Source: Bordetella genomosp. 12
Lineage (GTDB): Bacteria; Pseudomonadota; Gammaproteobacteria; Burkholderiales; Burkholderiaceae_B
NCBI RefSeq assembly: GCF_002261355.1
Contig: NZ_NEVU01000001.1
Location: 248,001 to 312,000, forward strand
Direction of reading: 5' to 3'
Length of the DNA stretch: 64,000 bases
In this document: positions 4,800-50,614 of the stretch, piece after piece
Numbering within the stretch: the stretch's first letter is position 1
Layout of the letters: every line of letters starts with the position of its first letter
The notes under the pieces: model-generated
What the model saw: the letters and a program-made list of their open reading frames with translations, nothing else
What the model was told of the DNA's origin: nothing
The model's database searches: none
Made by a program: the position numbers and the translations under genes

Positions 4800-4828
4800 T
4801 TGTAAAACAGGGCTTTACGGGATATATT
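4800..4828 (+). promoter_or_regulatory. Promoter of the TrmB-family regulator gene
   Basis: TTGTAA (4800-4805) and TATATT (4823-4828) are 17 nt apart, giving a good sigma-70 match. Transcription should start near 4835, inside the inverted repeat at 4830-4849, about 25 nt before the ATG at 4860. Confidence 0.55.
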
Positions 4829-4829
4829 G

Positions 4830-4849
4830 TTGTCGAAAATAATCGACAA
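4830..4849. promoter_or_regulatory. Inverted-repeat operator over the regulator transcription start
   Basis: Perfect arms TTGTCGA and TCGACAA with a 6-nt spacer lie immediately after the -10 box. The position predicts autorepression by the adjacent TrmB-type protein, with the half-site at 4755 linking it to livJ control (inference). The operator also shows that the TTG at 4827 is not the translation start. Confidence 0.55.
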
Positions 4850-4859
4850 AGGAGACGGC

Positions 4860-5618
4860 ATGGAGATCGATGCGCAACTGCAGGCCTTGGGCTTGGACGA
4901 GAAGGAGCGCCGCTTTTATCTTGCAGCGCTGCAGCTGGGCTCGGCCTCGGTCACGGAGGTCGCCACCCGCGCCGGGGTGTCGCGCACCAACGGCTACGAT
5001 CTGCTCGAACGCCTGGAGCGCCGCGGGCTGGTGGCGCAGGAGGGCGAGGCCGCCGGCGTGCGGCGCGTGCTACCGGCCGACCCGAGCGTGCTGATCCGGG
5101 ATTGGGAGCGTAAGCGGCTCATGCTCGACGAACTCGTTCCCGAACTGCGCTCGCTGTATAACGGCTCGCCGCGCAAGCCGCGCACCCGCATGTACGAGGG
5201 GGCGGAGGGCATACATCGCGCGCTGTGGGAAACCCTGGAGTGCCGCAGCAAGTTGCTGCTGGGGGTGCTGTCCATGCATGAGTTGCTCGAAGAGCCCGGC
5301 GCGCAATGGATGGATGGCTTCATCGCCGAGCGCGTCAGGCGCGGCATACGCCTTAACGTGCTGCGCTCGCCGGCGCGCGAGACCGAAAGGATCTGGCCCA
5401 CGAGCGGCGGCGAACTGCGCGAGCTGCGATACGTGCCGGCCGAACTCGATCTGGGCATGACGATGTACATCGCCGACGACAAGGTGACGTATGTGTCTTC
5501 CAAGGAGGAGAACTACGCCATGGTGATCGAAAGCCGCGAGCTGGCGTCTTTGAATCGTTCTTTTTTCTATTCGCTGTGGGCCGGGGCCGTCAAGTCCGGC
5601 GGGCATGCAGCGGCCTGA
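4860..5618 (+). CDS. TrmB-family transcriptional regulator
   Basis: 252 residues. An N-terminal winged helix-turn-helix (about residues 5-75, with SVTEVATRAGVSRTNGYDLLERLERRGLV as the recognition region) is followed by a linker helix and a C-terminal sensor domain (about 100-250) of the TrmB kind seen in sugar and metabolite sensors. ATG 4860 is chosen because GGAGACGGC precedes it and upstream in-frame codons overlap the promoter and operator. It is divergent from the liv/nitrilase operon, so it probably controls that operon and itself. The inducer is unknown. Confidence 0.82.
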   Translation: MEIDAQLQALGLDEKERRFYLAALQLGSASVTEVATRAGVSRTNGYDLLERLERRGLVAQEGEAAGVRRVLPADPSVLIRDWERKRLMLDELVPELRSLYNGSPRKPRTRMYEGAEGIHRALWETLECRSKLLLGVLSMHELLEEPGAQWMDGFIAERVRRGIRLNVLRSPARETERIWPTSGGELRELRYVPAELDLGMTMYIADDKVTYVSSKEENYAMVIESRELASLNRSFFYSLWAGAVKSGGHAAA

Positions 5619-5808
5619 CGGCCAGGGCGTGGTGCAGCGCGGCTTGTCTTTTGCCAACTGGCGCTAATATGCTTAGTGCAGCAGCCCGTCGGGCTGCGTT
5701 CTTTCGTCGCCGCTGTGCAAGGTCCTTGCCGCCATGACTACGCCTGTTTTTTCTCTCTCCATCTCTCCCATGTCCTGTCTGGCCAGACTGTCTGGCCGGT
5801 GACGCGCT
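5619..5808. other. Intergenic region before the TusA/DsrE/MetE unit
   Basis: 190 nt with no convincing gene. The only structure seen is the palindromic cluster at 5777-5797 next to the following gene. No clear terminator for the TrmB-type gene was found. Confidence 0.6.
5777..5797. promoter_or_regulatory. Overlapping palindromes upstream of the TusA-like gene
   Basis: GTCTGGCCAGAC (5777-5788) is a perfect 12-bp palindrome, and GTCTGGCC recurs at 5790-5797. The strand-symmetric unit GTCTGGCC/GGCCAGAC thus occurs three times in 21 nt, ending 11 nt before the GTG start. This could be an operator or an mRNA hairpin controlling the five-gene unit. No regulator is identified. Confidence 0.4.
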
Positions 5809-6048
5809 GTGTCCGCACTCCGTCAAGGCGAAGACTTCTGGGACGCCGGCAACATGGGTTGCGGCGAACTCGTGCTCAAACTGCGCAAGCACCTCAAAAG
5901 CATGCCTGGCGGGCTGATGCGCGTGGTCGCGCATGATCCGGGCGCGATCCACGACATTCCGGCCTTCTGCCGCATGACCCGCAACTCCCTCGAGCACTAC
6001 GATGCCGCGACGCACACCTTCTGGATACGCTCGCGGCTGGATTGGTAG
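5809..6048 (+). CDS. TusA-like sulfur-carrier protein (variant Cys motif)
   Basis: 79 residues with the TusA/SirA fold pattern: an N-terminal strand and helix with the cysteine, then the family block VVAHDPGAIHDIPAFCRMT, then a C-terminal strand. TusA proteins carry sulfane sulfur on a Cys in a C-P-x-P motif. Here the equivalent is Cys18 in MGCGELVLKLRKHL, so the Pro is replaced by Gly. The GTG start at 5809 is needed to keep the first strand; an ATG at 5854 would begin just before the Cys. It is the first gene of a five-gene co-directional unit whose last member carries a second TusA-like domain with the same C-G variant. Role inferred: sulfur or thiol carrier for that unit. Confidence 0.75.
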   Translation: MSALRQGEDFWDAGNMGCGELVLKLRKHLKSMPGGLMRVVAHDPGAIHDIPAFCRMTRNSLEHYDAATHTFWIRSRLDW

Positions 6049-6090
6049 CGTTGTTTATCCATTCTTACTTCAACACCCTGGAGGCTCAAC

Positions 6091-6453
6091 ATGGCTGGAA
6101 AATTCGTCGTCTCGCTGACCTGTTCCAAGAACGATACCGATAAGGCAACCGTGGCCTTCGTGGTGGCCAATGCCGCCGTCGCTTCCGACAAGCAAACCGT
6201 GGTGTTTCTCTCCATCGAGGGCACGCGGCTGTCTCAGCAAGGTTATGCGGATGAGATCCACGAGGCGGGCTTCGCCCCGCTCAAGGAACTGATGGACAAC
6301 TTCGCGGCCGCGGGCGGCGAAATCTACGTGTGTTCGCCGTGCTTCAAGAAACGCGCGCTGGATGAGAACAAGCTGATTCCCGGCGCCAAGATCGTCGGCG
6401 GCGCCAAGCTGGTGGAATTCATGAGCGAGGGCGCGCCCAGCATCAGCTATTGA
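6091..6453 (+). CDS. DsrE/DsrF-like family protein
   Basis: 120 residues of the DsrE-like fold (COG2044-type). The N-terminus is KFVVSLTCSKNDTDKATVAF, followed by a Rossmann-like core and the conserved block EIYVCSPCFKKR. Cys81 and Cys84 form a C-x-x-C and Cys11 lies at the end of strand 1. DsrE-type proteins relay sulfane sulfur to or from TusA, so a partner relationship with the preceding gene is expected from family knowledge. The good spacing (GGAGG before ATG 6091, 42 nt after the TusA-like stop) supports an operon. Confidence 0.8.
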   Translation: MAGKFVVSLTCSKNDTDKATVAFVVANAAVASDKQTVVFLSIEGTRLSQQGYADEIHEAGFAPLKELMDNFAAAGGEIYVCSPCFKKRALDENKLIPGAKIVGGAKLVEFMSEGAPSISY

Positions 6454-6473
6454 TCCACCTTCGGGAGACGCTC

Positions 6474-6989
6474 ATGTCAGTCCGTCGTTTGATGTGCACG
6501 GTATTCGTGTTGGCCGCCCTGGCGTATGTCGCGGTCAGCTATGCCGTTTTCGAGCTGCCTGCCACGGCCGCCGCCGCCGAGGAATGCGGCTTTTTGCCGG
6601 GCGAATTCGCCACGGGCGGCGGGCTGACTTATGAACGCACCCAGGCTTTCGGTATCAGCTTCGTGCGCAAGCAGGAGTACTTCACGGCCATCACCGTCGG
6701 CCTGGCGCTGGCCTTCATGGCCTTCGCCCTGAGCATCGGTCGCCGCGGCGGCGCCGCCTCGGCCGGCGTGGCCGCGGGCAGTGGCGCGCTGGCGGTCTCC
6801 GCGCTGTGCGTGAGCTGCCTGGCGCCGGCCCTGTCGGTCGTCGGATTGGGGATCGCAGGCGGTTTTCTCGCCGACGTACCGAAATGGCTGATCGCCTTGA
6901 ACACGCTGCTGCTGACGGGCTGGGGCGTGCTGTTCCTGTCGCGGCGCGCCAACGCCTGTGCGCTGCCGCCGCGGGCGGCCCGGGTTTGA
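6474..6989 (+). CDS. Four-helix membrane protein with MerT-like Cys motif
   Basis: 171 residues, not assigned to a named family with certainty. Four hydrophobic segments are seen at about 7-28, 70-90, 97-130 and 136-157. The third contains ALCVSCLAPALSVVGLGIAGG, with Cys112 and Cys115, resembling the Cys pair followed by Pro and Gly of MerT-type transporters. A further Cys38 lies in a predicted periplasmic loop. The start at 6474 follows GGGAG. It is 20 nt after the DsrE-like gene and 19 nt before the next. A thiol- or metal-transport role across the inner membrane is possible but is inference. Confidence 0.65.
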   Translation: MSVRRLMCTVFVLAALAYVAVSYAVFELPATAAAAEECGFLPGEFATGGGLTYERTQAFGISFVRKQEYFTAITVGLALAFMAFALSIGRRGGAASAGVAAGSGALAVSALCVSCLAPALSVVGLGIAGGFLADVPKWLIALNTLLLTGWGVLFLSRRANACALPPRAARV

Positions 6990-7008
6990 ATTCCATCGAG
7001 TGCCACCT

Positions 7009-8544
7009 ATGAAAATCCGCTACGCCGCCACAGTCGCGGCCTGTATGGTCGCGTTGCCGGCCTATGCGCTGGACGGTGCCAGCGTGCTGACGCCGGCTCG
7101 CCCGGATGTGCCGCTGGCCCATCCCATCGCCGCCGAACCCATTGCGCCGCCGCCGTTCTCGCTGATCGCCGAGCGGCCGGTCAAACCCGCTTACGTCACC
7201 GGCCTGCCTGGCTTGCCGCAGTACCGCATGGTCAGCGATGATTTTGGCCGCAAGATCGCTAAGTACGACGGTGTCTTCATCCGCCAGAGCCGCGTCGAAC
7301 AGGGCGAAGTGGTCATTCCGCCGGGCGGCCTGTACTACCTGGAAGATACTTGGGGCGGCGAGGTGGCGCTGCGCGGCGAGCAAGTGCCCATGCTGGGCCG
7401 CATGGCCACCTTCGTCGACTACGACATGTCCATCGAGGTGCAGGAAAACGTCACCATTCCCGCGGGCGGCAGCGTGGTGGTGGGCGGGCAGGTGTACCAA
7501 TACTATGCGACGGTTGGCCATGAGACCATGGCCAACCACGCGCTGCATGTGCGCACCATCGCGGGTACCGATTGGGAGTGGGCGTTCGGCAATCCCATCC
7601 TGTCGGCCAATGAGACCAACTGGTGGGGCACGCGATTCAACCAGCTCTACAACCAGGGCCAGGCGCGCGAGGTGTCGCCGCAGAAGATGGTGTTCGACTG
7701 GCTGAGCGGAGTGCGCACCGACCGCCTGCTGTATGCCGAGGACAAGATCCATGCGGGCCTGGCCGGCGCGGGCGAGCAATGGCAGATCGGCGCACGCACG
7801 CTGCGTGTGGCGGCGGTCGGCCATGACACCGTCACGCTCGAACTCCTCGAAGACGGCAAGGTCGTCAAGACGCGCACGTTGGGTCCGGTGCAACCGGCCA
7901 GGCTGATCGAAGATACGGCGGCGCGCAAGGCACTGGTCTTCGAGGATGGCGACATCGTGGTCTTTCTGTCGCCCTGGCCCAAGGCCTTCGAAGACGGCAA
8001 GGCCAACCTCAAGGTGTACGGCAAGGCATTCAGCCTGGCTTATGGCGCCGACTACGCACCTGACACGCGTTACGCCAGTTATCCGGTGGGCTGCCCGACC
8101 GGGCATCAGTTCGGCTTCATGCTGGTCAACAAGGAAACGATACGGCTTAAGCCGGGCGAGGCCTATACCGGACCGGAAGGGTATTTCAAGATCGCGGTCG
8201 ACGGCATCGATAACGGCAAGGTGACCGGCTGGCATATCGAAGATCGCGACGGCGCGCGCTCCATCAATCTGGGCGGCCCGGACGTCGAGAACGTCGATCT
8301 GGTTCTGGGCCAGGGGCGTGTGGCCGGGCAGGCCATGTTGTTCGACGTGGGCCGAGCGATGCTGGCCCGCAGTTATGCCACCGCCCAGCGCGCCGATGCG
8401 GGCGCAGCGCCCGCGCCCGTCGCGGCCGCCCCGGTGGCGGCCGAGTCGCGGGCCGGCTGGTCGCCGTCGTTGATCATTGTCGTCGCCATCCTCGCGCTGG
8501 CCTGCCTGGGCGTGGGTTTCGAGTGGGGCCGGCGCCGCCGCTAG
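7009..8544 (+). CDS. Secreted, C-terminally membrane-anchored protein of unknown function
   Basis: 511 residues. A signal peptide (MKIRYAATVAACMVALPAYA) is followed by about 440 residues rich in beta-strand pattern. An Ala/Pro-rich linker (about 463-482) precedes one C-terminal transmembrane helix (SLIIVVAILALACLGVGF) and a basic tail GRRRR. The body has repeated beta motifs such as WQIGARTLRVAAVGHDTVTLELLEDGKVV, which recalls S-layer-like or cell-surface beta domains. A single conserved-looking Cys lies in YPVGCPTGHQFGF. I do not recognise the family. It sits between the MerT-like protein and the TusA-MetE fusion with 19-nt gaps, so it probably faces the periplasm for the same pathway. Confidence 0.7.
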   Translation: MKIRYAATVAACMVALPAYALDGASVLTPARPDVPLAHPIAAEPIAPPPFSLIAERPVKPAYVTGLPGLPQYRMVSDDFGRKIAKYDGVFIRQSRVEQGEVVIPPGGLYYLEDTWGGEVALRGEQVPMLGRMATFVDYDMSIEVQENVTIPAGGSVVVGGQVYQYYATVGHETMANHALHVRTIAGTDWEWAFGNPILSANETNWWGTRFNQLYNQGQAREVSPQKMVFDWLSGVRTDRLLYAEDKIHAGLAGAGEQWQIGARTLRVAAVGHDTVTLELLEDGKVVKTRTLGPVQPARLIEDTAARKALVFEDGDIVVFLSPWPKAFEDGKANLKVYGKAFSLAYGADYAPDTRYASYPVGCPTGHQFGFMLVNKETIRLKPGEAYTGPEGYFKIAVDGIDNGKVTGWHIEDRDGARSINLGGPDVENVDLVLGQGRVAGQAMLFDVGRAMLARSYATAQRADAGAAPAPVAAAPVAAESRAGWSPSLIIVVAILALACLGVGFEWGRRRR

Positions 8545-8563
8545 TTCGTACAGGAGTCCTGCC

Positions 8564-10066
8564 ATGCAAGCCGTATCCCGGCATGAACACAGCCCCGATG
8601 TCAGTTTCGACGGCGGGGATCTGGATTGCGGCAACGGGTTGTTGCTGTTGATCCGCAAACACATCGATCCCCTGCCGCGCGGCGGCTTGCTGGAAATCCA
8701 GTCGCGCGAGATTTCGGTCGATGAGGATCTGCCCGCCTGGTGCCGCCTGACGGGCAATGAGTTGTTGTCCTGGACCTGTCACGGCGCGCAGCGCAGTTTT
8801 CTGGTCTGCAAGGGTGCGCTGGCCGAACGGCAAGCGCCGGGTCAGGCGCCGGTGGACGCGCGCGTCGAGGGCGCGCCGGCACGGCAGGCCGAGCGCCAGC
8901 GCAGGCCCGTTGCCGCCCTGCCGCCGCTGGCGGTCACGGGCATGGGCAGTTGGCCGCGCCCGCGCTGGATGATCGATGCCATGCACGCCCACGTGCAGGG
9001 GCGGCTGGCGGAGGCGGCGTTTCAAGAGACTGCGGACGACGCCGTGCGCCTGGCCATCGCCGCCCAGGAGAAGGCGGGCGTGGATATGGTCACCGATGGC
9101 GAGCAGCGCCGCGACAGCTACGCCAGCTTTGTGGCCTCGCGGCTGGATAACTGCCAGCTCATCCCCCTGACCGATCTGCTGCCCCTGGTGGACGACCCCG
9201 AGGCGTTTGCCGCCGAGCTGCGCGCGCTGGATATTCCGGCCGGCGACGTGCGGCATCCCGCCGTGTTTGGCCGGCTGGCCCGGTCACGGCCATTGGTCGC
9301 GCATGAAGTCGATTTCGCGCGCTCGATCACGGACAAACCGGTGAAAGTCGCCTTGCCCGGCCCCTATTTACTGACGCGCACCATGTGGATGGAGTGCATC
9401 TCCGACCGGGCTTATGACAACCGTGAGGCGCTGGCGGCCGATATCGTGCGGGTGTTGCGCGAAGAACTGGCCGAGGCCTTGGATGCCGGTGCGACATTGG
9501 TGCAGTTGGACGAGCCGGTGCTCTCCGAGGTGGTGTTTGCCGGCGCGAAGAACAAGCGCAGCTTCATGTGCGGCGCGCTGTCCGAATCGCTGGCGCCGGC
9601 CGATGAGCTGGCGTTTGCCCGCGATCTGCTCAATGCGGTGCTGGACGGCATGCCGCAGGAGCGCACGGCCTTGCATGTCTGCCGGGGGAACTGGACGCCC
9701 GATGAAAGCGTGGCGCTGTCGGGCGATTATGCGCCGCTGCTGCCTACGCTGGCACAGGTGCGGGTCGGCGCCTATCTGCTGGAGATGTGCACGCCGCGCG
9801 CCGGCGACGTGGCCATGCTCGGGGCCCTGCCGGATCACGCCCGCATCGGCATCGGGGTCGTGAATCAGAAAGACCCGGCCATCGAAGCCGAGGCGGAGGT
9901 CGCTTCGCGCATCGAACGCGGCATCCAGCTGTTTGGGCGCGACCGCTTGCTGCTGCATCCCGATTGCGGGTTCGCGACCTTTGCCGATAACCCCATCTGT
10001 TCGGCGGGTATCGCCCAGCAGAAGCTGGCGGTGATCGCCCGCGCCGCCAGCCGCTTTAAGCGGTAA
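8564..10066 (+). CDS. Fusion of TusA-like domain and MetE-type zinc methyltransferase
   Basis: 500 residues. Residues about 10-80 form a TusA-like domain with Cys22 in GGDLDCGNGLLLLIRKH and the family's second half (SREISVDEDLPAWCRLTGNEL). After a linker rich in Ala, Gln and Arg (about 88-120), residues about 122-500 match the C-terminal catalytic domain of cobalamin-independent methionine synthase. Zinc ligands are present: His371 and Cys373 in LHVCRGNW, Glu407 in YLLEMC and Cys468 in HPDCGF. The MetE N-terminal domain that binds triglutamyl-folate is absent, so an ordinary MetE role is unlikely. Inference: methyl transfer to or from a sulfur atom carried on the TusA domain. Strong AGGAG before ATG 8564. 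Confidence 0.85.
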   Translation: MQAVSRHEHSPDVSFDGGDLDCGNGLLLLIRKHIDPLPRGGLLEIQSREISVDEDLPAWCRLTGNELLSWTCHGAQRSFLVCKGALAERQAPGQAPVDARVEGAPARQAERQRRPVAALPPLAVTGMGSWPRPRWMIDAMHAHVQGRLAEAAFQETADDAVRLAIAAQEKAGVDMVTDGEQRRDSYASFVASRLDNCQLIPLTDLLPLVDDPEAFAAELRALDIPAGDVRHPAVFGRLARSRPLVAHEVDFARSITDKPVKVALPGPYLLTRTMWMECISDRAYDNREALAADIVRVLREELAEALDAGATLVQLDEPVLSEVVFAGAKNKRSFMCGALSESLAPADELAFARDLLNAVLDGMPQERTALHVCRGNWTPDESVALSGDYAPLLPTLAQVRVGAYLLEMCTPRAGDVAMLGALPDHARIGIGVVNQKDPAIEAEAEVASRIERGIQLFGRDRLLLHPDCGFATFADNPICSAGIAQQKLAVIARAASRFKR

Positions 10067-40401: not shown

Positions 40402-43400
40402 ATGCTGAACATGAATCGCCGCCAGTTCTTCAAGGTGACAGGGTCGACGCTGGCAGGCTCGAGCCTGGCTCTGTTGGGCGTCGCGCCCGGCACGGCCCTG
40501 GCCGAAGTGCGCCAGTACAAGCTTGCGCGCATGAAAGAAACGCGCAACACCTGTCCTTACTGTTCGGTCGCCTGTGGCATCTTGATGTACGGGCTTGGCG
40601 ACGGCGCCAAGAACGCCAAGGCCAGCATCGTCCACATCGAAGGCGATGCCGATCACCCGGTCAACCGCGGGACCCTCTGTCCCAAGGGGGCTGGCCTGAT
40701 CGATTTCATTCACAGCCCCAATCGCCTGACCTATCCCGAGTACCGCGCACCGGGCTCGGATACGTGGCAGCGTATGTCCTGGGACGAGGCGATGACGCGC
40801 ATCGCCAAGCTCATGAAGGACGACCGCGACGCCAATTTCGTGCAGAAAACGGCCGACGGCAAGACCGTCAACCGCTGGCTGACCACCGGCATGCTCGCGG
40901 CCTCCGCCAGCAGCAACGAGGTCGGCTACATCACGCACAAAGTTGTGCGCAGCATGGGGATGCTTGCATTCGACAACCAAGCTCGTGTCTGACATGGTCC
41001 GACGGTGGCAGGTCTTGCCCCGACGTTTGGCCGTGGAGCGATGACGAACCATTGGGTCGACATCAAGAATGCGGATGTAGTGCTGATCATGGGTGGCAAT
41101 GCCGCCGAGGCCCACCCTTGCGGGTTCAAATGGGTCACGGAAGCCAAAGCCCATAACAAGGCAAAATTGCTGGTCGTGGACCCGCGCTTTACGCGCTCGG
41201 CGTCCGTGGCGGATTTTTACGCGCCCATACGGACCGGCACGGACATCGTCTTCCTGGGCGGGGTGATCCATTACCTGCTCGAAAACGACAAGGTCCAGCA
41301 CGAGTACGTGCGCAATTACACCGACTTCTCGTTCATCGTCCGCGAGGACTTCCAGTTCGAGGACGGTATCTACTCGGGCTACAACGCCGAGAAACGCAGC
41401 TACGACAAGGCCTCCTGGGATTACGAGCGGGGCGAGGACGGTTTCGTCAAGACCGATCCGACACTGCAGCACCCGCGCACGGTCTATCAGTTGCTCAAGC
41501 AGCACTACGCGCGCTATACGCCGGAGATGGTCGAGCGCGTCTGCGGCACGCCGGTGGACAAGTTCCAACACGTCTGCGAGGTACTGGCGTCGACGGCCAC
41601 CACGGACCGCGCCGCCACGATTCTCTACGCGCTGGGCTGGACGCAGCATTCCATCGGTTCGCAGATCATCCGCACCGGCGCCATGCTGCAGCTGCTGCTG
41701 GGCAATATCGGTGTGGCCGGCGGCGGCATGAACGCGCTGCGCGGGCACTCCAATATCCAGGGCCTGACCGATCTGGGGCTGATGTCCAACCTGCTGCCGG
41801 GCTATATGACGCTGCCCAACGAGGGCGAGCAGGATTTCGGCAAATACATCGATGTCCGCGCGCAAAAGCCCCTGCGTCCCAATCAGCTGAGCTATTGGCA
41901 GAACTATAAGAAGTTCCACGTCAGCCTCATGAAGGCCTGGTGGGGACCGGCTGCCACGGCGGACAACAATTGGGCCTATGACTATCTGCCCAAGCTGGAC
42001 AAGCTCTACGACATGCTGCAGACGTACGAGCTGATGAACCAGGGCAAGGTCAATGGCTACATTTGCCAGGGTTTCAACCCCTTGGCCGCCGCGCCCAACA
42101 AGGCCAAGCTGACGGCCGGTTTCTCCAAGCTCAAGTTCATGGTCATCATGGACCCGCTGAGCACCGAAACCTCCGAGTTCTGGCGCAATGTGGGCGAGCA
42201 CAACGACGTTGATCCGAGCAAGATCCAGACCGAAGTCTTCCGCTTGCCCACGACCTGTTTCGCCGAGGAAGAAGGCGCGCTGGTCAACTCGGGCCGCTGG
42301 CTGCAATGGCACTGGAAGGGCGCCGAGCCGCCGGGCGAGGCGCGCAGCGACATCGAGATCATGTCCGATCTTTATACGCGCATGCGCGAGCTGTACCGCA
42401 AGGAAGGTGGCGTCTATCCCGATCCCATCGTCAATCTGTCGTGGCCCTATTCCAATCCGGAAAGCCCCACGGCGGTCGAGCTGGCCAAGGAATACAACGG
42501 CCGTGCGCTGGTAGACCTGACCGATCCCAAGGATCCGACGCGCGTCACGCGCAAGGCTGGCGAGCAATTGGCCGGGTTTGCCGAACTGCGCGACGATGGC
42601 ACCACTTTGAGCGGCTGCTGGATCTTTGCCGGTGCCTGGACCGAGGCCGGCAATATGATGGCGCGCCGCGACAACAGCGATCCGACCGGTATCGGGCAGA
42701 CCCTGAGCTGGGCTTGGGCCTGGCCTGCCAACCGCCGGGTGCTCTACAACCGCGCCTCGTGCGATGTGCAGGGCCAGCCTTTCAATCCGCGCCGCAGCCT
42801 GATCTCCTGGAACGGCAAGGCCTGGGTGGGCGCCGACATCCCCGACTTCAAGGGCGACGAGAATCCCGCTGGCGGCATGGGGCCCTTCATCATGAACCCC
42901 GAGGGCGTGGCGCGCTTTTTCGCGCGCGGCGGCATGGCCGAAGGCCCCTTCCCCGAGCACTACGAACCCTTCGAGAATCCGCTGGGGTACAACCCGCTGC
43001 ATCCCAAGCAGCCGCTGGCCGTCAGTAATCCGGCCGCGCGCGTGTTCAAGTCGGACCGGGAAGCCATGGGCACCGCGAAGGACTTCCCGTATGTGGCGAC
43101 GACCTATCGCCTGACCGAACACTTCCATTACTGGACCAAGAACGTCAGGCTCAATGCCATTCTGCAGCCCGAGCAATTCGTCGAGATCGGCGAGGCGCTG
43201 GCCAAGGAGCTGGGCATCGCCAACGGTTCGCGTGTGAAGGTGTCGTCCAAGCGCGGCTACATCAAGGCCGTGGCGCTGGTGACCAAGCGGATCAAGGCGT
43301 TGACCATCGAGGGCCGCACCGTGCACCAGGTGGGTATCCCGATTCATTGGGGCTTTGTGGGGATAGCCAAACCCGGCTTCCTGACCAATACGCTGACGCC

Positions 43401-43470
43401 GTTCGTGGGCGATGGCAACAGTCAGACGCCCGAGTTCAAGTCCTTCCTGGTCAAGGTCGAGAAGGCATAG
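40402..43470 (+). CDS. fdhG: Selenocysteine formate dehydrogenase, catalytic alpha subunit (FdnG/FdoG type)
   Basis: 1022 residues when TGA 40990-40992 is read as selenocysteine, residue 197 (E. coli FdnG Sec196). Twin-arginine signal NRRQFFKV is at the N-terminus. The [4Fe-4S] motif has Cys51, Cys54, Cys58 and Cys93. The Sec is followed at once by [21 protein letters not shown], the molybdenum bis-MGD active-site block, so the two open segments join without a shift. It oxidises formate to CO2 in the periplasm, passing electrons to FdhB and FdhC. Start 40402 has GGGAG upstream. First gene of the island with all Sec-insertion genes. Confidence 0.97.
40990..41022 (+). promoter_or_regulatory. 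Selenocysteine codon and bacterial SECIS hairpin in fdhG
   Basis: TGA 40990-40992 is followed by the hairpin CGG-T-GGCA-GGTCT-TGCC-CCG at 41003-41022. The stem GGCA/TGCC, the five-base loop GGTCT and the single bulged T at 41006 reproduce the loop and bulge that E. coli SelB recognises. This directs SelB-dependent insertion of Sec at residue 197. Confidence 0.92.
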
Positions 43471-43480
43471 GAGTCAAGTT

Positions 43481-44380
43481 ATGTCGATGCAATCACTAGA
43501 CATCAAACGGCGCTCGGCCACCACCACCCCGCCGCCTGGCGTGCGCGAGCCCTCCACGGGCAGCGTCGCCAAGCTGATCGACGTCTCCAAGTGCATAGGC
43601 TGCAAAGCCTGTCAGGTGGCGTGCATGGAGTGGAACGATCTGCGCGACGAGATCGGCGTGAACGTGGGGGTCTATGACAACCCGGCCGATCTCACCGAGC
43701 ACTCCTGGACGGTCATGCGGTTTTCGGAGTACGAGAACGACAAGGGCGACCTGGAATGGCTGATCCGCAAGGACGGCTGTATGCACTGCGAGGACCCGGG
43801 CTGTCTGAAGGCCTGTCCCTCGCCGGGCGCCATCATTCAGTACAACAACGGCATCGTGGATTTCCACGAGGAAAACTGTATTGGCTGTGGCTATTGCATT
43901 ACCGGCTGTCCGTTCAACGTGCCGCGCATCTCGCAGAAAGACCACAAGGCCTATAAGTGCACCTTGTGTTCGGACCGCGTGGCGGTGGGTCAGGAGCCGG
44001 CCTGCGTCAAAACCTGTCCGACCGGTGCCATCGAGTTCGGCACCAAGGAAGACATGAAGCAGCATGCGGAGCTGCGCATCGAGGATCTGAAGTCCCGGGG
44101 TTTCGAGAATGCCGGTCTGTACGATCCCCAGGGCGTGGGCGGCACGCACGTCATGTATGTCCTGCACCACGCCGACCAGCCGCAGCTCTACCACGGCCTG
44201 CCCAAGGATCCCAAGATCAGCCCCATGGTCGGTCTCTGGAAAGGCATCGCCAAACCCTTGGGCGTGGCCGCGATGGCCTTGACGGCGCTGGCGGGCTTCA
44301 TGCATTACATCCGGGTCGGCCCGAACGAGACCGACGAGGAAGACGAACGCAAGGCTGAAGAGGAGGCGCGCCATGGCTGA
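43481..44380 (+). CDS. fdhB: Formate dehydrogenase iron-sulfur beta subunit
   Basis: 299 residues. Four [4Fe-4S] clusters are predicted from Cys sets in [52 protein letters not shown] and [21 protein letters not shown]. One C-terminal membrane helix ([17 protein letters not shown]) anchors it to the gamma subunit. It relays electrons from FdhG to FdhC. AGGAG precedes ATG 43481, and the end overlaps fdhC by 8 nt. Confidence 0.96.
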
Positions 44381-45020
44381 CCCCCATCATCCCAAGTTGA
44401 TTCAGCGTTACACGGCCAATGAGCGCACCAATCATTGGCTGATCGCGCTGACCTTCATCCTGCTGGCGCTCTCGGGGCTGGCGCTCTTTCATCCGGCCTT
44501 CTCGTGGCTGTACGCCCTGCTGGGCGGCGGCCCGTGGACGCGCATTCTGCATCCCTTCATTGGGGTCGTCATGTTCGTCTGCTTCTTTGTTTTTGCCGTC
44601 CATATGTGGCGCAACAACATCATGACGAGAAACGACGTCCAGTGGCTGCGTCAGCTGGGCGATGTCCTGAACAACCGCGAGGACAAACTGCCCGAGGTCG
44701 GCAAGTACAACGGCGGACAGAAGCTGTTGTTCTTCGTGCTGGTGGTCTGCATGCTGGGCCTGATCCTGACCGGCATCGTGATGTGGCGCGCCTACTTCGC
44801 GATGTATTTCCCGATCTGGGCCGTGCGCGCCGCCTCGCTGCTGCATGCGATTTTTGCTTTTGCCCTGATTTGCGCGATCATTGTGCATATCTATGCGGCG
44901 ATCTGGGTCAAGGGTTCGATCCGGGCCATGGTGCGCGGCACCGTGACCTGGGGCTGGGCCTGGAAACATCATCGCGCCTGGTTCCGTACGGTTCGCAAGG
45001 AGTCGCCTGGCGGCGAATAA
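44373..45020 (+). CDS. fdhC: Formate dehydrogenase cytochrome b556 gamma subunit
   Basis: 215 residues with four membrane helices and conserved His for two b haems: [32 protein letters not shown] and [11 protein letters not shown]. It passes electrons to the quinone pool. A hairpin with a T-rich tail follows the stop and separates the structural from the accessory genes. Confidence 0.95.
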
Positions 45021-45060
45021 CCCCCGTCCAGCGTATCCCTCGGGCCGGCCGGCCCGCCGC

Positions 45061-45105
45061 ACGGCTGCGTTGCGTCTCCTGGCGCGTTCGCAGCCGTGTT
45101 TGTTT
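45061..45105 (+). terminator. Terminator-like hairpin between fdhC and fdhE
   Basis: ACGGCTGCG (45061-45069) pairs with CGCAGCCGT (45089-45097), 9 perfect bp with a 19-nt loop, then GTTTGTTT. A second perfect palindrome CGGGCCGGCCGGCCCG lies at 45041-45056. Together they could lower read-through into fdhE-selAB, so that the accessory genes are less expressed than fdhGBC. Confidence 0.5.
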
Positions 45106-45119
45106 CTCTGGAGAGTGCT

Positions 45120-46055
45120 TTGCAGCGAATTCTGCCGCGCGGTGAGATCGAGTCCCTGGATCACACTGCCATCGCCCGCCTGCGCCAACCCGAGCGCAGC
45201 ACGGTTTTCAGCGCCCGCGCCGCCCGTTTGCGCAGCCTGGCCGAAGACAGCCCGATCGCCGACTATCTGCGTCTGATGGCGCATGTGGCCGACGCCCAGC
45301 AGGCGCTGCTGGGCACCAGCCATTTCGCCGGCCCGTCGGCCGAGCGGATTGAACTGGCGCAGGCGCACGGTATGCCGCCCATGCAGGCCGTGGCCTGGGA
45401 GCGCGATCCCGCCTGGCGTGACTTGCTGGACCAATTGCTCGCGCGCGTGGCCGCGCTGCCCGACGTCGCGGCCGCCGCGCGCGAGGTCTGCGAACGCTGG
45501 CGCGAGGTGCTGGCCCGCGATCCGCAGGCCGTCGAGGAGCTTGCCGACGCGGTGCTGGCCGAGCGCGCCGTCGGGGTGGACAGCGCCGCCGCGCCTCTGG
45601 TCATGGCCGCTTTGCAGGTCTACTGGACCGATATGGCGTGCCGCTTCGACCCCAAGGCCATGCCGGTGGCCAGCCCTTTTGGCGTGTGCCCCATGTGCGG
45701 CAGCCTGCCGGTCTCCAGCGTGGTGCGCGTGGGCGGGCAGTCCGACGGGTTGCGTTATCTGGCCTGCGGCCTGTGCGCCTGCGAATGGCATCTGGTGCGG
45801 GTGACCTGCAGCCAGTGCCAGGGCACCAAGGACATCGCGTATCACAACATCGAAGGCCGCTCCGAAGCCATCAAGGCCGAGTCCTGCGACAGCTGCCACA
45901 GCTACCGCAAGATTTTCTATCAGGAAAAAGAACTGCGTGTCGATCCGGTGGCCGATGATCTGGCCAGCCTGGCGCTGGATGTGTTGATGGGCGAGGCCGG
46001 CTATCACCGCGCCAGCGGCAACCCGCTGCTCTGGCACGAGGAGAGCGCGCCATGA
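45120..46055 (+). CDS. fdhE: Formate dehydrogenase accessory protein FdhE
   Basis: 311 residues from TTG 45120, which has GGAGAG just upstream; a GTG at 45096 lies in the terminator hairpin and is less likely. FdhE binds iron by C-x-x-C pairs, visible here as [22 protein letters not shown] and CDSCHSYRK. It is needed for assembly of active respiratory formate dehydrogenase in the cytoplasm. The stop overlaps the selA start as ATGA. Confidence 0.92.
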
Positions 46056-47467
46056 GTGCGCGGCCGGCGACGCCGGGCGAACTGCCCTCGCTGGACCGGC
46101 TGCTCAGCCAGCCGGCTTATGCGCCGCTGCACGAGACGTTCGGACGCAGCCAGGTCGTGGCGGCTGCGCGCCAGCAATTGCAGGCCTTGCGCGAACGTGC
46201 GCTGGCCGGCGCGCTGGATCTGGCCGAACTCGACCTTGGCGTGCTGGCCAAGGTCACGGAACAGACGCTGCTCGCGCGCAATGCGCCGCGCCTGCGGGCC
46301 GTGTTCAATCTGACCGGCACCGTGTTGCATACGAATCTGGGCCGGGCCTTGCTGCCGGACGAGGCCGTCGATGCGGTGCTGCGCGCCCTCACCCGCCCGG
46401 CCAATCTGGAATTCGATCTGGAGACCGGCGCGCGAGGCGACCGCGATGACCTGGTTGAAGATCTGCTGTGCGAATTGACCGGCGCCGAAGCCGCGACGGT
46501 GGTCAACAATAATGCCGCGGCGGTTTTGCTCATGCTCAATGCGCTGGCCGATCGCCGCGAGGTCATCGTCTCGCGCGGCGAACTGGTGGAAATCGGCGGG
46601 GCATTCCGCATTCCCGACATCATGAAGCGGGCCGGCGCGCGCCTGGTCGAGGTTGGCACCACCAATCGCACGCACGCCGCCGATTATGCCAATGCCATGG
46701 GCGCGCGCACCGCGATGCTGATGAAGGTGCATTGCAGCAACTACGCCGTGACGGGCTTTACCAAGAGCGTCAGTGTCGCCGAGGTCGCGGCGCTGGCGCA
46801 TGCCCAGGGGCTGCCGGCCACGGTCGATCTGGGCAGCGGCACCTTGCTGGACCTGACGCAATGGGGATTGCCGCGCGAGGATACCGTGCGCGATACCATC
46901 GAGGCCGGCGCTGACTTGGTCACCTTCAGTGGCGACAAACTGTTGGGCGGCCCGCAGGCCGGCCTGCTGGTCGGGCGCGCCGACCTGATCCGCAAGATCA
47001 AGAAGAACCCGCTCAAACGCGCCTTGCGCGTGGGCAAGCTGACGCTGGCCGCGCTCGAACCCGTGCTGGCGCTTTACCGTGCGCCCGAGAAGCTGGCCGA
47101 GCGGCTGACGACCTTGCGTCTGCTTACGCGGGGGCAGCGCCAGATGCAGGCGCAGGCCGAGCGTCTGCGCGCCGGCGTGCAACAGGCGGTGGGGCCCGAG
47201 TTTGGCGTCGAAGGCGCAGCGATGTTCAGCCAGATCGGCAGCGGCGCTTTGCCCGTCGATCAATTGCCCAGTTTTGGCCTGGCCATCCGGTATCTCGGCC
47301 GAGGCCGTCCCGGACGCCATCTGGAGCGTCTGCAGGCAGGCCTGCGCGGTCTGGCGCGGCCCGTGATCGGCCGCATCGAAGACGATGTTTTCTGGCTGGA
47401 TCTGCGCTGCCTCGAAGCGCGCGATGAAGCCGAGTTCGCCGCCCAATTGACGGAGCCTATCGCATGA
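46052..47467 (+). CDS. selA: L-seryl-tRNA(Sec) selenium transferase SelA
   Basis: 471 residues. It converts Ser-tRNA(Sec) to Sec-tRNA(Sec) with selenophosphate, using PLP as a homodecamer. N-terminal tRNA-binding helix region about 1-70. The PLP Lys is Lys296 in [14 protein letters not shown] (E. coli Lys295), and [17 protein letters not shown] and [13 protein letters not shown] are also diagnostic. The start overlaps fdhE and the stop overlaps selB, both as ATGA. Confidence 0.97.
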
Positions 47468-49398
47468 TCGTCGGCACGGCCGGGCATATCGACCACGGCA
47501 AAACCACGCTGGTGCGCGCGCTGACCGGCGTCGATACCGACCGCCTCAAGGAAGAGAAGGCGCGCGGAATTTCCATTGAGCTGGGTTACGCCTACACGCC
47601 CTTGCCTAATGGCGACGTGCTGGGATTCATCGATGTGCCCGGTCACGAAAAACTGGTGCATACCATGGCCGCCGGCGCCAGCGGTATCGATTTCGGGCTG
47701 CTGGTGGTGGCCGCCGACGACGGCGTGATGCCGCAGACACGCGAGCATTTATCCATCCTGGCGCTGCTGGGCGTGGACCGTGGGGCGGTCGTTCTGACCA
47801 AGGCAGACCGCGTGGAGGCGGATCGCATCCAGGCCGTGCAGGCGGAGGTCGCCGCGTTGACGGCCGGCACCTTCTTGCGGGATGCGCCTGTGTTCGTGGT
47901 CGCGGCCGGGCAGCCGGACCATGCCGGCGTGCGCGAACTCAAAGCCTGGCTGGATGCGCAGGCGCAGGCGCAGGCATTGGCGCCGCGGCCCGCCAGCGGC
48001 CTGTTTCGGCTGGCGATCGATCGCGCGTTCACGCTGGCCGGGCATGGCACGGTCGTGACGGGCACCGTGCATGGCGGAACGGTGCGCGTGGGCGAGGAGG
48101 GCGTCGATCTGCGGCTCATGCCGGCCGCGCGGCCGGTACGGGTGCGCAGCATCCATGCCCAGAACCGCAGCAGCGAGACCGGCGTGGCCGGGCAGCGTTG
48201 CGCGCTGAATCTGCCTGGTGTGGATAAGGATGCGATCACGCGTGGCGATTGGGTGGCCGACGCGCGCTGCTTCACGGCCTCGCAGCATATGGACGCCGAG
48301 CTGCGTTGGCAGGGCGAGACGGCGCTGGCCGCCTGGACGCCGCTGCATGTGCATCTGGGCGCGGCGCGCGCGCTCGCGCATGCCGTGCCGCTGGCGCCCG
48401 CGCTACTGCTGGCCGGCCAAACCGGGCGGGTGCAGCTGGTGTTCGATACGCCCATGTGCGCCATGCCGGGCGACCGTTTCATCGTGCGCAATGCCCAGGC
48501 CAATCGCACGGTCGGCGGCGGGCAGATCCTCGATGCCAACGCGCCCGACCGCAAACGCCGTTCGCCCGAGCGGCTGGCCTGGCTGGACGCCGTGGCCGCC
48601 TATCTGGCCGATGGCGATCTGCAACCCGTGCTGGCGCAAGCGCCGCTGGGCATCTCCGAACTCATGGTCCTGCGCCTGGGCGCAATGGATCGGCTGCCGC
48701 CGCACGCGCTATGGGTGGCGCCGCGCCAGGGCGGCGCGCGCGTGCTGATCGATCAGGCGCGCTGGCAGGCGCTGCACGAAGACCTGCAGACCGCGTTGAC
48801 GGCTTTTCATGCACAGTATCCGGATGAGCCGGGCGCCGATGCCGGCCGGCTGCGGCGCATGGCCTGGCCGCAGGCCACGCCGGCGCTGTGGCAGGCCTTG
48901 CTGGAGGACGCCGCGCAAACGGGGCAGGTGCGGCGCAACGGCGTCTGGTGGCAACTGCCCGACCATGGCGTGTCTTTGAGCGACGCCGAGTCCGTGCTGG
49001 CCGCAAGCGTGTTGCCGCTCTTGCAGCAGGGCCGTTACGATCCGCCCTGGGTGCGCGATCTGGGCCGTGCGCTGCATGTGGCCGAAGAGGATATGCGCCG
49101 CCTGTTGCGCAAACTGTTGCGGCAGGGCGAGGTGGTCCAGGTGGTGCGCGATCTGTTCTATCACCGTGATGCGGTGCAGGCGTTGGCGGCCTTGGTCGCC
49201 GGTTTGTGCCGGGAGCATGGCAGTGCCGAGGCGGCCTCCTTTCGCGACCTGACCGGCCTGGGCCGCAAACGCGCGATCCAGATCCTGGAATACTTCGATC
49301 GCGCGGGCTATACCCGGCGCCTGCGCGACGGGCATGTGCTGCGCAGTGACAGCCTGCTTTACCCCTATGCACAAGACGGGGACGAGTCGCTATCATAG
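47464..49398 (+). CDS. selB: Selenocysteine-specific elongation factor SelB
   Basis: 644 residues. GTPase domain 1 has G1 GHIDHGKTT at 7-15, the [16 protein letters not shown] block and TKAD as the guanine motif. Two beta-barrel domains follow to about 340, then four winged-helix domains (about 380-640) that bind the SECIS hairpin. It brings Sec-tRNA(Sec) to the ribosome at TGA 40990. It is followed after 12 nt by the tRNA-Sec gene, so the whole route is transcribed together. Confidence 0.97.
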
Positions 49399-49410
49399 AG
49401 GGCCACCAAG

Positions 49411-49506
49411 GGAAGGCATGCGTGCCCGGTGGCACGGCTGGGCTTCAAACCCAGTTGGGGGCGTCAGACGCTCCCAGGTAGGTTCGACTCCTGCTGCCTT
49501 CCGCCA
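49411..49506 (+). tRNA. selC: tRNA-Sec (anticodon TCA)
   Basis: 96 nt including encoded CCA. The 8-bp acceptor stem GGAAGGCA/TGCCTTCC, discriminator G and CCA end are clear. The anticodon arm CTGGG-CTTCAAA-CCCAG carries TCA at 49445-49447. A long variable arm (GGGGGCGTCAGACGCTCCC region) is present, as is GGTTCGACTCC for the T arm. This is the tRNA charged by SerRS and converted by SelA. It lies 12 nt after selB. Confidence 0.96.
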
Positions 49507-49564
49507 TCGTTTGCGCGGGCGCGATGCTATGCTTTCAGCGCCCCTGATCTGATGGAGATTGCGC

Positions 49565-50614
49565 ATGTCCAACGATACCGTCCCGCGCCTGACCTCGTTG
49601 TCTCATGGCGGTGGCTGCGGCTGCAAGATAGCGCCTGGCGTGCTGTCGGAGTTGCTGGCGCGTTTCGTGCCGCAACGCAGCGACCCGAATCTTCTGGTGG
49701 GCACCGAGACTTCGGATGACGCGGCCGTCTATCGGCTCAACGATGAGCAGGCCTTGATCGCCACCACCGATTTCTTCATGCCCATCGTCGACAACCCTTT
49801 CGACTTCGGGCGTATCGCCGCCACTAACGCGCTGTCCGATATCTACGCCATGGGCGGCAAGCCCATTCTGGCGCTGGCCATCGTGGGCATGCCCATCAAT
49901 GTCTTGCCGCATGATGTGATTGCCGAGATTCTGCGCGGCGGCGAGTCTGTCTGCCAGGACGCCGGCATCATGGTGGCCGGCGGGCACAGCATCGATTCGG
50001 TCGAACCCATCTATGGTCTGGCCGCCATGGGCCTGGTCCATCCGGAGCGCATCAAACGCAATGCCGATGCGCGGCCCGGCGACGTGCTGATTCTGGGCAA
50101 ACCGCTGGGCGTGGGCGTGCTGTCGGCCGCCCTGAAGAAAAACTGCCTCGATGAGGCGGGCTACGCCGCCATGATCGCCGCCACCACCCGGCTCAACCGT
50201 CCGGGGACGGAGCTCGGTGCGCTGGCCGGCGTACATGCGATGACCGATGTCACGGGCTTTGGCCTGCTGGGGCACACGCTGGAGATGGCGCGTGGCGCGG
50301 GCTTGACGGCCCGTTTGCGCTTGAGCGATCTGCCCTGGATGCCCGGCGTGCGTGCCTTGGCCGCCGAGGGCGTGGTCACCGGCGCTTCGGGCCGCAACTG
50401 GGCTTCTTATGGCGCCGACATTCGTCTGGCCCCCACCCTCGCCGAGAGCGATCGCGCCTTGCTGACCGACCCGCAGACCTCAGGCGGCCTGCTGGTGGCT
50501 TGCGCGCCCGACACCGTCGATCAGGTGCTGGCGGTTTTCCGCGCCGCGGGCTTTGCCGAAGCGGCGGTCATCGGCGAGATGGCCGCAGGCGATCCGGTGG
50601 TCGACGTCGCATAA
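49565..50614 (+). CDS. selD: Selenophosphate synthetase SelD
   Basis: 349 residues. Catalytic Cys18 and Lys21 lie in LSHGGGCGCKIAP (E. coli Cys17 and Lys20); the position is Cys, not Sec. ATP-binding Asp-rich motifs (TSDDAAVYRLND, TTDFFMPIVDNPFDFGRIAATNALSD) and the C-terminal LTDPQTSGGLLVA follow. It makes the selenium donor for SelA from selenide and ATP. ATG 49565 gives the usual N-terminus. It completes the Sec island. Confidence 0.97.
   Translation: MSNDTVPRLTSLSHGGGCGCKIAPGVLSELLARFVPQRSDPNLLVGTETSDDAAVYRLNDEQALIATTDFFMPIVDNPFDFGRIAATNALSDIYAMGGKPILALAIVGMPINVLPHDVIAEILRGGESVCQDAGIMVAGGHSIDSVEPIYGLAAMGLVHPERIKRNADARPGDVLILGKPLGVGVLSAALKKNCLDEAGYAAMIAATTRLNRPGTELGALAGVHAMTDVTGFGLLGHTLEMARGAGLTARLRLSDLPWMPGVRALAAEGVVTGASGRNWASYGADIRLAPTLAESDRALLTDPQTSGGLLVACAPDTVDQVLAVFRAAGFAEAAVIGEMAAGDPVVDVA

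Follow-up and report, generated by a model that had tools for sequence, protein, structure and literature searches.

The TusA and DsrE families serve as sulfur carriers in known systems. To our knowledge, how selenium stays separate from far more abundant sulfur en route to SelD is unclear. Among the described systems that resemble the locus presented here, YedF is a selenium-linked protein composed of TusA and DsrE parts (Lin 2015, PMC5322559), and methyl-selenide recycling by zinc methyltransferases of the UroD superfamily has been proposed for type I mlp clusters (Kountz and Balskus, PMC10418091). According to two reviews, prokaryotes have no identified (specific) high-affinity system for selenium transport (PMC9312934, 2022; PMC13188914, 2026). 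The sections of PMC7857596 on core methionine synthases supply the zinc and homocysteine ligand criteria used below and call the structure 3rpd a MesD. Finally, the pocket of the HtxB-like binding proteins has been published as a likely phosphite binder, and the describers of this orphan subfamily considered it for phosphite-based biocontainment (PMC6629693).

The five-gene locus

The window, a stretch of 64,000 nucleotides from Bordetella genomosp. 12, contains five co-directional genes at 5809-10066 on the + strand, separated by successive gaps of 42, 20, 19 and 19 nt:

g1, 5809-6048, +: TusA-like carrier encoded on its own (79 aa), with a GTG start and the C-G motif
g2, 6091-6453, +: DsrE-like protein, 120 aa, CSPC motif
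g3, 6474-6989, +: membrane protein, roughly four hydrophobic stretches, conserved cysteines
g4, 7009-8544, +: 511 aa, beta-rich, with a signal-like N-terminal and an anchor-like C-terminal hydrophobic stretch
g5, 8564-10066, +: fusion of a TusA-like domain (about residues 10-85) and a MetE catalytic core (about residues 120-500)

The order, strand and 19-42 nt gaps agree with the preliminary description, while its start at 5777 does not stand: that position is out of the g1 frame, in which a stop codon at 5800 rules out any start ahead of the GTG at 5809. Both carrier assignments hold, with g1 scoring 39.1 bits against TusA (PF01206, cut-off 28.6) and g2 scoring 55.4 bits against DsrE (PF02635, cut-off 22.7) in Pfam, and C-G replaces C-P-x-P in g1 and in the TusA-like part of g5, as had been described.

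A TrmB-like regulator upstream was not counted as part of the module, since its only matches were in the genome of the window and at one further locus (L037). Riboswitch control was also set aside, as the window and 8 of 80 loci held no SAM, SAH or cobalamin riboswitch at the gathering threshold, only tRNA-Sec and SECIS elements. Selenocysteine inside the carriers was rejected: with TGA read as Sec in 172 TusA-model, 87 DsrE-model and 198 fusion-model matches, neither g1 nor g2 showed a Sec position. The TGA codons in that scan lie mostly just beyond gene ends; at L029 one precedes another core MetE, and the sole fusion fragment that has a TGA inside it (L026) appears degenerate.

The TusA-MetE fusion

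The analysis bears out the reading of g5 as a TusA-like domain joined to a MetE-type zinc methyltransferase core that is missing the folate-binding N-terminal domain of MetE. The core scores 96.4 bits against Meth_synt_2 (Pfam, cut-off 21), and the N-terminus, at 15.9 bits against TusA, is under the Pfam cut-off of 28.6 and shares 39% identity with g1 across residues 11-70. The folate-binding domain (PF08267) is absent, with 16.1 bits over 42 residues against a cut-off of 27, and g5 is not a full-length MetE (TIGR01371, 84.1 bits, cut-off 929.95). The zinc ligands His371, Cys373, Glu407 and Cys468 are invariant in 88/88 aligned rows (85 distinct), and the homocysteine ligands Ser129, Glu180 and Asp316 are kept in the same rows. 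Within the TusA domain, Cys22 and Cys60 are kept across the 88 rows and the Cys22-Gly23 pair occurs in all of them, while Cys197, Cys278 and Cys336, likewise kept across these rows, are specific to the fusion, missing from 18/18 other core MetE. For g5, the best fold match is 3rpd. Together, the sequence features support a putative zinc- and homocysteine-type methyltransferase core without a folate domain. In the open-licence literature, we found neither a paper on a TusA-MetE fusion nor an assay of any member of the module.

The view that this enzyme does not serve methionine synthesis is upheld in that a housekeeping role was rejected: MetH is present in 34/39 fusion-genome rows, which argues that the fusion is not the main methionine synthase. 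Full MetE (E below 1e-100) occurs in 11 of the 39 rows, and the window genome additionally encodes both full MetE and MetH.

Distribution and variants of the module

TusA-MetE fusions elsewhere form a wide family (the 88 aligned rows, 85 distinct). Judged from record titles, full-length relatives span Alpha- and Betaproteobacteria, Planctomycetota, Rokuibacteriota, Binatia and Obscuribacterales, and the five-gene set is thus more than chance. DsrE adjoins the fusion in 75/81 loci and a same-strand stand-alone TusA is found in 66/81; the view of the genes as a real unit is supported. All five families are together in only 24/81 loci, and the full set is one variant of the module. Two membrane modules replace each other among the loci, g3-g4 and an ABC importer that belongs to the orphan HtxB-like type, and this exchange strengthens the earlier idea of transport across the membrane.

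Binatia fusion loci adjoin metY-metX-metW, which also fits plain methionine metabolism and weighs against a selenium reading. Among families shared by at least five loci, no DUF1852 (MesX) or corrinoid partner was recognised by reading, and no sulfur-oxidation gene was recognised when the first 90 residues were read by eye; recurrent neighbours, by reading, included no recognisable MtaA-like methyltransferase. Phosphorus was rejected as the element, with no ptxD, htxA or C-P lyase recognised by reading among recurrent neighbours. Arsenic was rejected as well: no ars genes were noticed in the 19 fusion loci with listed open frames, and an ArsS neighbour was seen at one HtxB-like copy without the fusion.

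Membrane genes and the HtxB-like importer

Neither g3 nor g4 matches a Pfam family at E<=1, and g3 has no NCBIfam match over cut-off, leaving the earlier label of g3 as MerT-like without profile backing. Its cysteine pair was correctly described, as Cys112 and Cys115, together with Cys38 and Cys162, are invariant in 20 aligned sequences, and the roughly four hydrophobic stretches also agree. The two terminal hydrophobic stretches of g4 fit a membrane-anchored periplasmic protein, as suggested before. This gene occurs in 2/300 Burkholderiales genomes, both with the fusion, and its predicted model resembles an archaeal S-layer DUF1608 domain; the Foldseek and VIA rows ranked below DUF1608 were dropped as short, apparently unrelated beta matches.

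For the alternative importer, we aligned 34 HtxB-like rows (33 distinct); fusion loci supplied 26 of them (25 distinct), and genomes lacking a full fusion the other 8. The pocket signature Trp52, Ser128-Thr129-Ser130, His158, Phe/Tyr176, Arg178 and Asp206 is present in 34/34 rows, and two 42%-identical proteins lack it. In all rows, the residues of the HtxB hypophosphite pocket, Asn128, Phe158 and Met176, are replaced by Ser, His and Phe or Tyr, while Trp52, Arg178 and Asp206 are kept, which is the pattern of the HtxB-like subfamily. Against the putative selenate ABC transporter binding protein TIGR04553, the importer protein scores 85.2 bits, under the cut-off of 250. One HtxB-like copy without the fusion (L129) adjoins ArsS (TIGR04167) and TIGR04283.

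Genomic link to selenium

The window genome is a selenium user, with these features on the + strand outside the operon:

selA, 46079-47452, + (G000:C3:294079-295452)
selB open frame (stop to stop), 47428-49395, +
tRNA-Sec, 49411-49506, +
selD open frame (stop to stop), 49553-50611, +
SECIS_3 element, 40987-41045, +, in a region that resembles formate dehydrogenase by reading

In other genomes, SelA, SelB, SelD or tRNA-Sec stands beside the fusion in 4/80 loci. In Paracoccus versutus (L069), selA lies about 80 nt downstream of the fusion; in a Bradyrhizobiaceae MAG (L056), selD is co-directional with the fusion and some 130 nt downstream of it, with selB, selA and tRNA-Sec also present; P. aminovorans (L059) has selA and tRNA-Sec, and a betaproteobacterial MAG (L055) has selB and tRNA-Sec. 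The annotated Paracoccus ferrooxidans record pFER4 carries tusA, dsrE, two hypothetical genes (g3-g4), the fusion, selA and trxB in a row, with selB on the same record. We discounted a SelB match at L066 (E 2e-12), which on reading is probably a piece of an elongation factor.

Genome content points the same way. SelD is over cut-off in 50/52 fusion genomes, the remaining two having SelA, and SelA in 46/52; nine further fusion genomes from a Burkholderiales draw have SelD in 8/9. Altogether, SelD or SelA is found in 60/61 fusion genomes checked, the exception being a genome that is 78% complete (G126), with neither over cut-off. In Hyphomicrobiales, SelD occurs in 12/12 fusion genomes versus 8/154 others (Fisher 2e-13). 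In Burkholderiales, SelA occurs in 7/9 genomes with the importer versus 80/291 others (p = 0.003), and neither SelD (10/12 fusion genomes versus 205/288 others, p = 0.29) nor SelA (5/12 versus 82/288, p = 0.25) is significantly associated with the fusion, so that SelD alone was discarded as support in this order. SelD is common in Burkholderiales generally. This lack of association, G126 and the 76/80 loci with no sel gene within the stretch examined speak against the selenium reading.

A probable selenium supply module and its alternatives

The genomic link of the module to selenium is well supported. Both the neighbouring genes and the co-occurrence across genomes make selenium the most likely element, rather than the sulfur of the preliminary description, though the co-occurrence is not significant in Burkholderiales alone. 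The cluster is probably a selenium supply module (uptake, carrier, salvage) for SelD-dependent selenium use. We infer the following path for the cargo. The membrane module, either g3 and g4 or the HtxB-like ABC importer of sister loci, would import a small selenium compound, whose selenium the TusA-like and DsrE-like proteins would hold on their cysteines. The TusA domain of the fusion would hand the selenium on to the MetE-type zinc site, at which homocysteine would be bound and activated. There, the zinc-bound homocysteine thiolate may take a methyl group from methylated selenium on or near Cys22, giving methionine and a selenide or perselenide, either of which would be passed to SelD. In this the fusion might parallel the corrinoid UroD-family enzymes, for which such a methyl transfer is proposed in anaerobes. 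We know of no established corrinoid-free methyl transfer from a thioether or selenoether to a thiolate.

In its most specific form, which we put forward tentatively, the module might be a high-affinity selenium acquisition system of aerobes, combining an importer for methylseleninate or selenite (HtxB-like, or the g3-g4 pair), a TusA/DsrE relay and a corrinoid-free demethylating TusA-MetE that sends selenide to SelD and methyl to methionine. The likely phosphite binding published for the HtxB-like pocket (PMC6629693) stands against an importer of selenium compounds.

A selenium module without demethylation shares all of the above selenium evidence, and we consider it unlikely. Selenite would enter through the HtxB-like importer or g3/g4, TusA and DsrE would carry selenopersulfide, and the MetE-fold homocysteine or zinc-cysteine site would be a transfer station separating selenium from sulfur before SelD. 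By an isostere argument of our own, selenite suits in shape the pocket argued in PMC6629693 to take phosphite, a three-oxygen ligand; the private Cys197, Cys278 and Cys336 of the fusion and the trxB that follows selA in P. ferrooxidans also fit. The complete homocysteine pocket in 88/88 rows is what it leaves unexplained.

A sulfur or methyl-sulfur route is quite improbable. Thiosulfate or an organosulfur compound would be the source of sulfane sulfur or a methylthio group, which the carriers would shuttle to or from homocysteine, in keeping with the Binatia loci beside metYXW and the known role of TusA and DsrE. Related PBP-like sensors bind sulfur oxyanions, which also speaks for it; the lack of a sulfur-oxidation gene recognised, by reading, among the families of five or more loci, the SelD link in Hyphomicrobiales and the operon-like row with selA-trxB argue against it. 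Least likely is a fifth Mes family, a core methionine synthase with a TusA-delivered methyl donor and a selenium link that is a by-product of both traits in versatile aerobes. The seven kept ligands and the adjoining metYXW in Binatia speak for it; MetH and full MetE in fusion genomes, the lack of a DUF1852 or corrinoid partner recognised, by reading, as a recurrent neighbour, and an unexplained sel adjacency speak against it.

As a selenium supply module, the cluster would name testable candidates for two steps, selenium import and separation from sulfur before SelD: an importer that has a close relative of solved structure, two carrier proteins, and an enzyme of known fold with a predictable reaction.

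Comparison with known systems

The type I mlp clusters, as described in the sections of PMC10418091 on them, are alike in their zinc methyltransferases, strong co-occurrence with Sec machinery and proposed methyl-selenium demethylation. They differ in their anoxic settings, corrinoid proteins and MtaA-like enzymes, whereas here TusA is joined to a MetE-type core whose homocysteine pocket is intact, and reading of the recurrent neighbours led to no recognised corrinoid gene. The YedF/YedE pair, as presented in the passages of PMC5322559 on it, also combines TusA (SirA-like) and DsrE-like domains with a membrane protein and is SelD-linked. However, YedF is a single chain with a CPxP TusA and a CGxC DsrE-like domain, while TusA (C-G) and DsrE (CSPC in the window) are on separate genes here, with no match to YedF (TIGR03527) at E<=1, and YedE, with its ten helices, is far longer than g3. 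With MetE, the cobalamin-independent methionine synthase, the fusion has the catalytic barrel and zinc site in common, but not the folate domain. MesA-MesD, in the account of their ligands by Price (2021, PMC7857596), are likewise MetE cores without a folate domain and with the same zinc and homocysteine ligands; the fusion is set apart by its N-terminal TusA domain, private cysteines and SelD genomic company. Lastly, the importer binding proteins have the same pocket signature as the HtxB-like ("hybrid") proteins of PMC5700983 and PMC6629693, where phosphite was modelled and the sections on these proteins do not report TusA, DsrE or fusion company. The orphan HtxB-like subfamily thereby gains a genomic context.

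The operon and the fusion family

The five co-directional genes lie as the preliminary description had them, with the same gene ends and with gaps of 42, 20, 19 and 19 nt, except that the first cannot start at 5777; because a stop at 5800 closes its frame, a GTG at 5809 is required.

5809-10066, + strand: TusA-like (g1), DsrE-like (g2), membrane (g3), membrane-anchored periplasmic (g4) and TusA-MetE-core fusion (g5) genes
4827-5618, + strand: TrmB-like regulator, upstream of the operon, matched beyond the window genome only in locus L037
200-4665, - strand: branched-chain amino acid type ABC transporter genes (by reading), upstream of the operon

Profile searches confirmed TusA (g1), DsrE (g2) and the MetE catalytic domain (g5), and gave no match over cut-off for g3 or g4. 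The TusA match at the g5 N-terminus falls below the Pfam cut-off, but residues 11-70 are 39% identical to g1. Four cysteines are invariant among 20 g3 sequences, while the predicted structure of g4 (pLDDT 70) has as its top match a DUF1608 S-layer domain from Methanosarcina.

The TusA-MetE fusion is a real and wide family. Scanning species genomes yielded 144 relatives; the best 80 of these (L034-L113) come, by record title, from Alpha- and Betaproteobacteria, Planctomycetota, Rokuibacteriota, Binatia and Obscuribacterales. The fusion occurs in 12/300 Burkholderiales genomes, counting the window genome and partial or degenerate copies, and at E<=1e-100 in 1/155 genomes of Hyphomicrobiales (the order of Xanthobacter tagetidis), this being the centre genome itself. 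One degenerate-looking copy (L026 1264-2208, genome G026) is broken up, carries a TGA in its interior and loses similarity. A search of the open-licence PMC literature found no description of the fusion or of a TusA/DsrE/MetE unit.

Across an alignment of 88 full-length rows including the window (85 distinct, given three identical pairs), the zinc ligands His371, Cys373, Glu407 and Cys468 and the homocysteine ligands Ser129, Glu180 and Asp316 are invariant, following the ligand criteria in an excerpt of PMC7857596, as are Cys22 and Cys60 of the TusA part. Cys278 and Cys336 are present in 88/88 rows and Cys197 in 87/88, and none of the three is found in 18 other core MetE proteins. In the tree, the fusions group together as a single clade (local support 0.735), separate from those 18 and from the MetE of the window genome. 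The predicted structure of the fusion (pLDDT 81) matches 3rpd and MetE.

Modular organization of the loci

Neighborhoods were counted over 81 loci, the best 80 of 144 plus the window. DsrE adjoins the fusion in 75/81, and a stand-alone, same-strand TusA lies beside it in 66/81. Of the six loci lacking DsrE, L053, L074 and L088 end close to the fusion, and L064, L085 and L087 do not. The expected co-occurrence of all five families held in part: they stand together in 24/81 loci (22 in plain order, plus L044 and L045), and in the rest the full set is not seen. ABC importer genes (permease and ATPase) adjoin the fusion in 29/81 loci, 25 of these 29 with a recognized binding protein; L044 carries both membrane modules, and an ATPase match in L045 was treated as unrelated. 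TusA, DsrE and the fusion alone are visible in 18/81 loci. Among 300 Burkholderiales genomes, g4 occurs in two, both also with the fusion.

Association with selenium-use genes

Selenium-use genes adjoin the fusion in 4/80 loci. The selA gene follows it in P. versutus (L069) and P. aminovorans (L059), two Paracoccus loci that are not independent; selD comes immediately after it in L056, with selB, selA and tRNA-Sec beyond, and selB and tRNA-Sec follow it in L055. By title, the last two belong to different classes, L056 being alphaproteobacterial and L055 betaproteobacterial. Taking each 5 Mb genome to contain two sel loci, we roughly estimate 0.6 adjacencies by chance, with P(>=4)=0.003 and P(>=3)=0.02. 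Between fusion and sel genes, L055 (10199-11148) and L056 (10699-12142) each have another DsrE-like gene paired with one read as GcvH-like; this additional DsrE-like family is also found near the TusA-DsrE-fusion trio in other loci. On the annotated P. ferrooxidans plasmid pFER4, the gene order is tusA-dsrE-hypothetical-hypothetical-fusion-selA-trxB, and the record also contains selB. Upstream of this operon, on the opposite strand, is a cysteine desulfurase gene (L141 7705-8907), which could encode a selenocysteine lyase-like enzyme. In the window, the Sec locus is ~30-40 kb from the five genes.

40987-50611: SECIS_3 in a formate-dehydrogenase-like region, selA, selB, tRNA-Sec, selD

Among 52 fusion genomes (those of 49/80 loci plus G000, the window genome, G237 and G002), SelD exceeds the cut-off in 50 and SelA in 46; both genomes missing SelD, G002 and G324, have SelA. 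Twelve of the 52 are Hyphomicrobiales judging by record title and genus, and all 12 have SelD, against 8/154 in the background (9/155 before removing one of the 12); Fisher p=2e-13, with the sets differently drawn and kinship ignored. SelD is present in 215/300 Burkholderiales genomes, and there the link is not significant for SelD (10/12 fusion genomes versus 205/288, p=0.29) or SelA (5/12 versus 82/288, p=0.25). The two Burkholderiales fusion genomes without SelD are G002, where SelA is present, and G126, which has neither and is 78% complete. Over both sets combined, SelD or SelA is found in 60/61 fusion genomes; a published survey places SelD in 38.3% of bacteria (PMC5322559).

The HtxB-like importer

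The nearest relative of the importer binding protein is HtxB (5me4, E 5e-75). At the pocket positions named in excerpts of PMC5700983 and PMC6629693, Trp52, Ser128, Thr129, Ser130, His158, Phe or Tyr176, Arg178 and Asp206 are present in all 26 fusion-locus rows (25 distinct) and all eight from genomes without a full fusion; two more distant proteins depart from this pocket. These residues place the protein in the "HtxB-like" subfamily described in PMC6629693, where phosphite was proposed as ligand. The gene neighbors here suggest a ligand other than phosphite. Among the 300 Burkholderiales genomes, the nine with this importer (at least 59% identity) have SelA in 7/9, versus 80/291 (p=0.003).

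Some HtxB-like importers occur without the fusion. In L128 2875-6078 (G263), a TusA-DsrE-importer set is followed by molybdate-uptake-looking genes. In L129 7564-9438 (G169), the HtxB-like gene adjoins ArsS (TIGR04167), in the same stretch as a TIGR04283 glycosyltransferase and a MerA-like oxidoreductase; its ligand may bear on arsenosugar or selenium-ArsS biology. A metallophosphatase-like gene (by reading) adjoins three such importers (L133 7589-8665, L134 8760-9851, L129 6503-7603), the L129 and L133 copies giving no NCBIfam match.

Proposed reaction

The window genome has a separate full MetE and MetH besides the fusion. MetH is present in 34/39 fusion-genome rows (33/38 with G237 and G300 merged, the same genome by coordinates) and full MetE in 11/39; the fusion is therefore probably not the main methionine synthase. 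A methionine-related role is best supported by Binatia, where the DsrE-fusion pair is divergent from metY, metX and metW (L108, L111, L113), as is the fusion in L112, where DsrE is not among the genes listed; L109 has gene families in common with these four loci. This context is consistent with homocysteine as partner and with a zinc enzyme. A PNP_UDP_1 phosphorylase gene lies alongside metY-metX-metW in L108, L111, L112 and L113, and some Binatia loci have AztD-like, CobW-like and ZnuA-like genes downstream, resembling zinc homeostasis (by reading).

The intact homocysteine pocket on the zinc barrel, the cysteine carrier domain replacing the folate domain, and the selenium neighbors together suggest that the fusion would use a methylated selenium species as methyl donor and homocysteine as acceptor. 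The main rival is a plain selenium relay without demethylation. For the proposed methyl transfer, selenolate is far superior to thiolate as a leaving group. Selenide can be methylated by SAM without an enzyme, and a similar logic has been proposed for corrinoid enzymes of the UroD superfamily (both from an excerpt of PMC10418091).
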